A DNA stretch of 35,293 nt from Desulfurivibrio sp. (GTDB lineage: Bacteria > Desulfobacterota > Desulfobulbia > Desulfobulbales > Desulfurivibrionaceae): assembly GCA_013791995.1 (NCBI GenBank), contig VMSS01000244.1, forward strand, positions 1 to 35,293. Reading direction: 5' to 3'. Both the position numbers and the translations under genes were made by a program. The first letter of the stretch is position 1, and each line of letters begins with the position of its first letter. Below are positions 9,629-11,272 of the stretch, piece by piece. The notes under the pieces were generated by a model, which did not search any database, had not been told where the DNA came from, and saw only the letters and a list, made by a program, of their open reading frames with translations.

Positions 9629-11029
9629 CTAAAACTGCCAGCCAACGCCGAAATTAATGGCATTGTCCGGATCAGTGGCACCATCTGCTTCCAGCACTTG
9701 ATAGTCAGCCTTCAGCACCAGATTGGGCACCGGGTAAAAGGCCAGGCCGAAGGTCCAGTCGTAGCGGTCCTTGCCTGTGGCAGCCGTGACCCCGGCCGGC
9801 ATTTTGTGCTGGGTGTTGTACTCATCGTAACGAACAAAGGCCACCAGGTCGGAATTGGCCAGTTTTCCGCTTTTCCAGGACGCGGGCATAATATGGTACC
9901 CGGCCTCAACAAAATAACCGTACATTTCCTCAGCCACCTTGTTGGCGCTCAGATTTTCAGCCCCGTCGATCTCCTCGAAAGCGACCACGCCCCTTACATC
10001 CAGATCACCGAATTTTGCCGAAAAATCTCCCGAGTAGATGGTGATATCGCCATTTTTACCCGAATCAGCTCCTTTGGGACGGTTGTTGATTCCGCCGTGA
10101 TACAAGGACGCTCCGAGTCGCAGATTCTGGCCCCAGGTGGTGGTGGAATCCATGAAGGGGTAATAGTCGAACCGAAAGGTGAGCGCCAGATCGTTCAGGC
10201 TGGGCTCATCCTTAATGCGGCCGTTGCGAATACCGTCGCTGCTGAATTTTGACCCGTCAAGACCGCCTACCACATACGCCTCGTAGCTTAAATTAGTCGC
10301 CAGATTGCCAAAAAGGCCGATGCCGTCCGACGACCAAGTGCTGGGAACCATCAACCGGTCAAAATTCGGTCGTTCGACGCTGTAAAAGGTGGTGGGCTCA
10401 TGATGTTGGTTGGTGATACCGACCGGCGTAAGAACGCGGCCGAAGCGGACATTGGCCTGATCGGAAAGAAGAAAATCCACATAGGCCTGCTCCAGCATCA
10501 AGTACCCGCCTGCCTTGTCACCGGACTGGGTGTCTTCCACAAAGGCATGCTCCAGTTCGATTTCAGATTGAAACTTGATCCAGTCGTTGAATTGGTACCC
10601 GACCAAAGCTACCATGCGATGAATATCGAGCTTGTCATTGGATTTACCGTCGGTAGCACCCTCGCTGAAATTGGCATGGATCTCTCCGTATCCGCCGAAA
10701 GTGAACGGAGACAACGGGCTTTCCTTCTCCCGCTCCAGGACCGCCTGCTCAATCATGCCCTTCAGTTCCGTTTTGTCTTGATTGCTGCTTAATCCGACTC
10801 CTTGCGAAGCAGCATTGGCAGACATCCTGCTTTCCAGACTGACAACCTGTTTGGTCAAGGTCTCGATGCTGCTCTGTCTGCTTTTCAATTCGGACAAAAG
10901 CCCCTGCATCTGTCGCTCAAGCTCCTGAATCCTCACCTCCTCGCCTGTGGAGGCCAACACAACCCCAGGCTGCATCGCCACCAGGGCTATGCAGCATCCC
11001 AAAACAACACTGTGTATCCTCTTCCTCAT
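9629..11029 (-). CDS. LbtU-like outer-membrane porin with N-terminal coiled coil
   Basis: A 466-residue outer-membrane beta-barrel. The start ATG 11029 is chosen over an upstream in-frame codon at 11053 because GGAGG lies seven bases before it and it gives a clean signal peptide (MRKRIHSVVLGCCIALVAMQ, cleavage near VLAS). A coiled coil follows (about residues 28-67, QELERQMQGLLSEL onward), then a barrel beginning FTFGGYGEIHANFSEG. Alternating aromatic/polar strands run to the end, NFGVGWQF, with a terminal Phe as in OMPs. The pattern (coiled coil plus porin with RFGRVLTPVGITNQHHEP) resembles the LbtU family named for a Legionella siderophore receptor, also similar to phosphate-selective porins. 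Substrate is unproven; no Fur-box-like sequence was found upstream. It is followed by the cytochrome lipoprotein gene. Confidence 0.85.
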   Translation of the reverse strand: MRKRIHSVVLGCCIALVAMQPGVVLASTGEEVRIQELERQMQGLLSELKSRQSSIETLTKQVVSLESRMSANAASQGVGLSSNQDKTELKGMIEQAVLEREKESPLSPFTFGGYGEIHANFSEGATDGKSNDKLDIHRMVALVGYQFNDWIKFQSEIELEHAFVEDTQSGDKAGGYLMLEQAYVDFLLSDQANVRFGRVLTPVGITNQHHEPTTFYSVERPNFDRLMVPSTWSSDGIGLFGNLATNLSYEAYVVGGLDGSKFSSDGIRNGRIKDEPSLNDLALTFRFDYYPFMDSTTTWGQNLRLGASLYHGGINNRPKGADSGKNGDITIYSGDFSAKFGDLDVRGVVAFEEIDGAENLSANKVAEEMYGYFVEAGYHIMPASWKSGKLANSDLVAFVRYDEYNTQHKMPAGVTAATGKDRYDWTFGLAFYPVPNLVLKADYQVLEADGATDPDNAINFGVGWQF

Positions 11030-11093
11030 TTCTTTTCCTCCGTAAAAGTTCAAGTACCACCATAAAGTTACACATGCCTAACATATGGGCGGC

Positions 11094-11136
11094 AAAAAAA
11101 CGCCTGTTGGCGCGTTTCGGCCAAGAGTCAGGCGTT
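11094..11136 (-). terminator. Intrinsic terminator/attenuator in the porin leader
   Basis: On the minus strand AACGCCTG (11136-11129) pairs with CAGGCGTT (11106-11099), with an inner TTGGC/GCCAA stem (11124-11120 with 11111-11107). The four bases 11125-11128 bulge on one side and the loop is 8 nt. The right arm runs directly into seven T residues (minus strand of 11100-11094). This is a textbook Rho-independent terminator lying between the promoter (11176-11204) and the porin ATG (11029). It would yield a short RNA of roughly 75 nt or act as an attenuator for the porin-cytochrome transcript. Confidence 0.7.
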
Positions 11137-11175
11137 ACCAATAAAGTTATTAATGCACAACAATCTCGTCGGTCA

Positions 11176-11204
11176 CTTATACAAGCCAGTTCACCACCGG
11201 TCAA
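11176..11204 (-). promoter_or_regulatory. Strong sigma70 promoter of the porin-cytochrome leader
   Basis: On the minus strand TTGACC (11204-11199) and TATAAG (11181-11176) are spaced by exactly 17 bp. The predicted transcription start is near 11169, giving a 5' leader of about 140 nt before the porin ATG at 11029. The match and spacing are directly visible; activity is inferred. Confidence 0.65.
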
Positions 11205-11272
11205 GTATTTTTTTTAGGCACCATGAACTTTATTGATTGAGTGCAACCTTCAGCCTTGTCTCCCCCCATTTC

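Follow-up and report, generated by a model that had tools for sequence, protein, structure and literature searches.

A predicted metal-responsive control region with a candidate repressor-gated terminator upstream of a porin gene in Desulfurivibrio

The window analyzed here, the whole 35,293-nucleotide stretch of Desulfurivibrio sp. DNA, carries an outer-membrane porin gene preceded by the control features collected in Table 1. The encoded protein matches PF07396 (Porin_O_P) weakly, with a Pfam E-value of 3e-9, above the cut-off; by sequence we found no relatives of it in the PDB, and no NCBIfam family for it. Orthologs of the porin are present in six other genomes of the order, four of which belong to the same genus (97%, 69%, 69% and 67% protein identity), one to another genus of the family and one to another family. 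In one of these genomes (G015, contig C13, locus L005), the porin match carries a single in-frame TAA.

Table 1. Features of the porin gene and its upstream region (window coordinates)
Feature	Position	Strand	Basis
Outer-membrane porin gene, 466 aa, regulated gene	9629..11029	-	Weak PF07396 Porin_O_P match; orthologs
Shine-Dalgarno GGAGG, 7 nt 5' of the ATG at 11029	11037..11041	-	Sequence
Box 3, predicted DtxR/IdeR-type site TTAGGCATGTGTAACTTTATG, 12 nt behind the U-tract	11061..11081	-	1 mismatch
12-nt spacer, U-tract to box 3	11082..11093	-	12 nt in all five genus porin leaders; 10-13 nt recurs before other genes
Intrinsic terminator, stem-loop plus seven U	11094..11136	-	-18.5 kcal/mol, z -3.7 against dinucleotide shuffles; compensatory changes
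Box 2, predicted DtxR/IdeR-type site TTGTGCATTAATAACTTTATT, weaker, ~10 nt behind the presumed start	11140..11160	-	2 mismatches
-10 element of P1, TATAAG	11176..11181	-	Sequence, promoter score; kept in genus
-35 element of P1, TTGACC	11199..11204	-	Sequence, promoter score; kept in genus and in L016
CCTAAAAAAAA, half-site of box 1 plus A-tract, directly 5' of the -35	11208..11218	-	Common to feoAB promoters (CCTAAAAAAGATATTGAC)
Box 1, predicted DtxR/IdeR-type site TTAGGCACCATGAACTTTATT, 5' of P1, opposite orientation	11214..11234	+	0 mismatches

A first-pass annotation of this DNA had described a promoter at 11176-11204 with a 17-bp spacer, a leader of about 140 nt and, within that leader, a stem followed by seven U residues that ends 65 nt before the porin ATG. 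These observations are confirmed, and the reading placed upon them is partly supported, as set out below. The promoter, which we call P1, lies on the minus strand with a presumed start at ~11169, as read from the positions of its -35 and -10 elements; the leader is ~140 nt long and the U-tract ends 65 nt from the ATG at 11029, both as annotated. P1 scores higher than 99.6% of shuffled sequences (p 0.004), and p values of 0-0.004 against shuffles were obtained for P1 in the five terminator-bearing porin leaders and for the three feo promoters that were scored. An automated promoter scan had passed over P1 solely because its rule requires a T at the last position of the -10 element.

The hairpin in the leader consists of a 7-8 bp stem and an inner stem (11136-11101) followed directly by U7 (11100-11094), and it therefore presents the stable hairpin and U-run of an intrinsic (Rho-independent) terminator. 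The ~75-nt RNA that ends here folds with a z score of -3.2, and none of 200 shuffles was as stable. A comparison of homologous leaders, which had been proposed as a check, found P1 and the terminator in front of each of the four congeneric orthologs. Among the genus leaders the stem core CCTG/CAGG is invariant, two stem positions are altered on both sides (C-G/U-A/A-U and G-C/A-U) and three inner pairs take the place of the bulge in three genomes. In the ortholog from another genus of the family (g5, L006), the equivalent position is occupied by a less stable hairpin (-10.9 kcal/mol, z -1.5) and a T8 tract. The ortholog from another family (L016) has the promoter and lacks the terminator; control therefore does not depend on a terminator.

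Three predicted DtxR-type boxes surround the promoter and the terminator, a feature that the first-pass annotation had overlooked. The motif TTAGG-N7-AACTTTATT, with up to three mismatches allowed, has only three matches in the window, all of them within a 175-bp region; since a shuffled whole window yields 1.2 matches on average, the weight rests on clustering and conservation and not on number. Compared with the published IdeR/DtxR iron-box consensus TTAGGTTAGSCTAACCTAA (PMC8464063), 23 boxes agree at a mean of 11.5 of 19 positions, against 5.3 (maximum 9.7) for shuffled 19-mers, and their right half is degenerate. The TTAGG and AACTT of box 3 are invariant across six genomes, and the counterparts of box 2 in two congeners (G006 and G009) match the motif better, as TAAGG-N7-AACTTTATT. 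Two RNA structures that include box letters were considered and rejected. The first, a hairpin with a UUAGG loop behind the terminator (seen by eye in G000 and G006), owes its conserved letters to the DNA box, which is found also in reversed orientation upstream of the promoter; the second, a 5' hairpin containing box 2, has z scores of -0.3 to -2.3, a covariation near zero and a register that is not kept.

Genomic context links this motif to iron uptake. In the genome under study, a relaxed form of the motif has four matches, namely the three porin boxes and the feoAB promoter. A scan covering 258 genomes of the order placed several of the top matches ahead of feoB or feoA (families f3, f4 and f12), and some of these feoB genes are followed by a gene for a Fe_dep_repr_C protein; within the genus (g1), the box precedes feoB or feoA in most genomes. 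Those feoAB promoters of the genus that have a readable upstream region follow the pattern TTnGG-N6-TAATTTTATT, then (C)CTAAAAAAGATATTGAC, which closely resembles the CCTAAAAAAAATACTTGACC of P1. The single DtxR-family (PF02742) gene of the genome, located on contig C198 at locus L091, is itself preceded by TTAGGTTGGGCTAAC, a site of the pattern TTAGG-N5-CTAAC that is kept in several congeners and is a close variant of the porin/feoAB motif. As is characteristic of a metal box, the motif is thus common to metal-uptake genes and to the regulator's own gene (feoAB and the dtxR-family gene in the genus; feoB in f3, f4 and f12). Metal control of the porin region has a strong comparative basis, the metal would most likely be Fe2+, and the porin is very probably metal-repressed. 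We infer the regulator to be the DtxR-family protein, whose ortholog in G007 is short (162 aa) and MntR-like; three Fur-family proteins are also encoded.

Several further loci came to light in the scan. In three f4 genomes (G041, G047 and G048; L049, L051 and L055), feoB-like genes with an exact or one-mismatch promoter box are followed by a small Fe_dep_repr_C (DtxR-like) gene, and three genomes (G015, G016 and G012; L127, L164 and L166) carry separate boxed feo-type promoters ahead of feoA and of feoB, and lbtU lies between the two promoters. In G239 (L047, contig C118, 18-107), two inverted boxes 48 bp apart precede a DUF2325 gene and feoAB in a layout that resembles porin boxes 1 and 2. 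Another candidate iron-regulated porin, of the Opr family, has a one-mismatch box directly 5' of its gene and a DUF4198 gene behind it (L061, G017 contig C76, 1805-3904). A cytochrome c3-like gene (L011, G018 contig C16) has AATAAAGTT about 20 nt before a promoter-like TTGACA, possibly by chance. Repeats of the CACTTTAGGCACTTnnAACTTTAG type, some in tandem, stand before unrelated genes at five loci in f4 and f7 (L052, L053, L057, L058 and L059); these fit the box pattern yet resemble a dispersed repeat and not an iron box.

The arrangement of terminator, 10-13 nt and box in the sense orientation recurs before the porin (g1 and g5), before lbtU (three times in g1 and once in g5), before cysteine-rich genes and before a DUF2325-like gene; it was found in three families, and the hairpin sequences are unrelated. 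In G015, feoA is followed by the siderophore-porin gene lbtU (NF033652), which is preceded by a terminator, 12 nt, a box, a Shine-Dalgarno sequence and the ATG; the corresponding lbtU spacing is 11 nt in G012, 12 nt in G016 and 11 nt in the genus-5 genome G020. At two f12 loci, feoA (named by eye from sequence) is followed by a terminator, a spacer of 12 nt (L064) or 13 nt (L148), a box and a small cysteine-rich gene, and in f11 (L146) lbtU is followed by a terminator, 12 nt, a box and a short ORF that, by eye, looks like the beginning of the L047 DUF2325 protein. Among all loci examined, 18 sense boxes are accompanied by a T-run and a hairpin at least as stable as -9 kcal/mol; the gap is 12 nt in 9 of these 18 and 9-13 nt in 13. 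Some of the loci had been retrieved by a pattern requiring a T-run 3-20 nt before the box, and the five g1 porin leaders represent one lineage and are not independent. The six antisense sites have scattered gaps with no peak at 12. Among the sites that fit a stricter motif, a gap of 12 occurs in porin and lbtU sites only.

Behind the terminator, none of the ten modules (porin and lbtU) has a sigma-70 promoter that scores above chance (p 0.14-0.90 against shuffles), so the porin and lbtU genes most likely depend on readthrough past the terminator. A sigma-54 promoter was also considered and rejected by eye, its spacing being wrong.

We propose that this is a metal-responsive control region in which terminator plus box 3 would work as a single attenuator gated by the repressor, reused before lbtU and other feo-linked genes, and we regard this reading as close to an even call. 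When metal is plentiful, a DtxR-family repressor is predicted to bind boxes 1 and 2, which flank P1, and to switch initiation off, a step that is well supported by comparison. Transcripts that do leave P1 would, as the sequence and its conservation indicate, reach the intrinsic terminator ~75 nt in, before the gene. There, metal-bound repressor on box 3 may act as a roadblock that holds the active site of the polymerase on the U-tract, so that leaky transcripts end there. Under metal scarcity no box would be occupied, P1 would fire and part of the polymerases would read into the porin gene. For the tight roadblock EcoRI Gln111, E. coli polymerase is known to halt 14 nt upstream of the site (PMC5499547), and in each of the ten porin and lbtU modules (gaps of 10-12 nt) position -14 from the box falls within the U-tract, from which we infer stalling at the point where termination happens. 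As in roadblock-coupled termination of the YtgR kind, the predicted operator lies downstream of the promoter and before the gene, with the expected polymerase stop position at the terminator, a likeness of geometry only. The terminator looks strong by itself, and the level of readthrough predicted at low iron is not accounted for by the roadblock model.

The layout can also be read as plain repression. Boxes 1 and 2 already flank P1, and the L016 ortholog has boxes on either side of its promoter and no terminator, both of which speak for boxes that act on initiation only, through occlusion or looping among boxes 1, 2 and 3, with a terminator that just lowers output or trims leaky transcripts and is uncoupled from box 3. 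We give this plain repression an appreciable but clearly minority chance; it leaves unexplained the recurrent 12-nt spacing and the sense orientation of the box before unrelated genes.

Rather doubtful, in our judgment, is a second promoter (P2) overlapping box 3 from which the porin would be transcribed, in which case the terminator would end a separate short P1 RNA. The sequence TTGSCG-N17-nnTAAC can be read at the equivalent place in the five g1 porin leaders, where box 3 would cover P2, and the spacing would then, with similarly slight probability, be set by the distance between a -35 at the end of the U-tract (TTGGCG or TTGCCG) and a -10 (CATAAC, TATAAC or TGTAAC). However, in all ten porin and lbtU modules the scores of P2 are not above those of shuffles, whereas P1 and the feo promoters reach p 0-0.004, and the lbtU modules contain no consistent -35 and -10. 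A promoter of unusual type may nevertheless overlap box 3.

From the terminator's position between promoter and gene, the first-pass annotation had drawn two options, namely conditional readthrough and a free-standing RNA of about 75 nt. Conditional readthrough is still the best reading, given a conserved terminator and an undetectable promoter behind it, but the RNA-based sensors suggested for it find no support. As for the free-standing RNA, a complete ~75-nt transcription unit with metal-type boxes at its promoter is present and could take a stable form, so an iron-regulated small RNA that is RyhB-like in logic, with the porin expressed through readthrough, can be envisaged. We consider this improbable: apart from box 2, the sequence 5' of the hairpin shows little conservation between this genome and its congeners, the leader RNA has no Rfam match and no copy of the unit was seen away from the porin. 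Classical RNA attenuation, in which a riboswitch, leader peptide or RNA-binding protein would act by alternative pairing with the left arm, is the weakest rival and very improbable, for although a 5' hairpin in G006 and G009 is able to extend into the left arm CCUGC, the pairing of upstream sequence with the left arm does not exceed that of shuffles (0.16-0.93) and is not kept in G000, G002 or G015, the covariation term is near zero, transcript-prefix folding and left-arm duplexes gave no antiterminator that is conserved or above shuffles, no leader ORF or peptide is conserved by eye in the orthologous leaders, and the Rfam 15 covariance models have no match in the leader at gathering score or at E<=5, in agreement with the earlier failure to recognize a common riboswitch core.

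If the repressor-gated attenuator is correct, one regulator and a fixed spacing would unite repression of initiation and intrinsic termination, which are usually separate layers, and the model supplies a directly testable geometry for roadblock-assisted termination. We also consider it possible, though with the balance tilted somewhat against it, that these loci represent a class of attenuator which senses metal through a DNA-bound repressor of the DtxR family. With its box at a constant 12 bp behind an intrinsic terminator, this repressor would hold RNA polymerase on the U-tract and so control termination as well as initiation, and Desulfobulbaceae-related bacteria would employ the device repeatedly in their iron regulons (porin, lbtU and feo-linked small genes). 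The predicted regulon in these bacteria comprises feoAB, the regulator gene, the porin and lbtU, and a partial literature search found no description of a DtxR-type regulon in the group. We take D. psychrophila to be a relative of the group. In a 2004 comparison of delta-proteobacteria, this species stood out by the absence of Fur and Fur boxes (PMC545781).

Like IdeR/DtxR boxes, the sites described here combine a TTAGG half-site with an AAC-TWA half-site, keep the 7-nt spacing between them and occur at feo genes and at the regulator's own gene; they differ in that the right half is AACTTTATT or AATTTTATT and not AACCTAA, and in that the presumed regulator is short and MntR-like. DNA-bound regulators are known to act as transcriptional roadblocks in the cases of LacI, CcpA, CodY, PurR and C.Kpn2I (PMC10310618, PMC6237814), with which the present model shares a regulator site downstream of the promoter and a proposed block to elongation; the roadblock papers examined gave no example of such a block being coupled, with fixed spacing, to an intrinsic terminator. 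The closest precedent for roadblock-assisted termination here would be YtgR, a DtxR-like protein of Chlamydia trachomatis that promotes iron-dependent termination at its operator in the trpRBA intergenic region (PMC6504234). In both systems an iron-repressor operator, here a predicted one, lies between an upstream promoter and downstream genes, and in the YtgR system the upstream transcripts terminate in iron-replete cells. The YtgR operator, however, lies inside an operon with an alternative promoter, whereas the porin leader, known from sequence alone, has a conserved hairpin terminator at a fixed 12 nt before the box and an undetectable second promoter. Finally, the metal boxes suggest that this porin, otherwise without a name, has a role related to iron, and the psp porin of the Geobacter/Desulfuromonas Fur regulon is likewise weakly PF07396-like, has two tandem Fur boxes and was proposed to function in iron transport (Rodionov 2004, PMC545781). 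The psp boxes are of the Fur type (WTGAAAATNATTTTCAW) with no terminator described, and the porin studied here looks like a counterpart of psp under a DtxR-type box.
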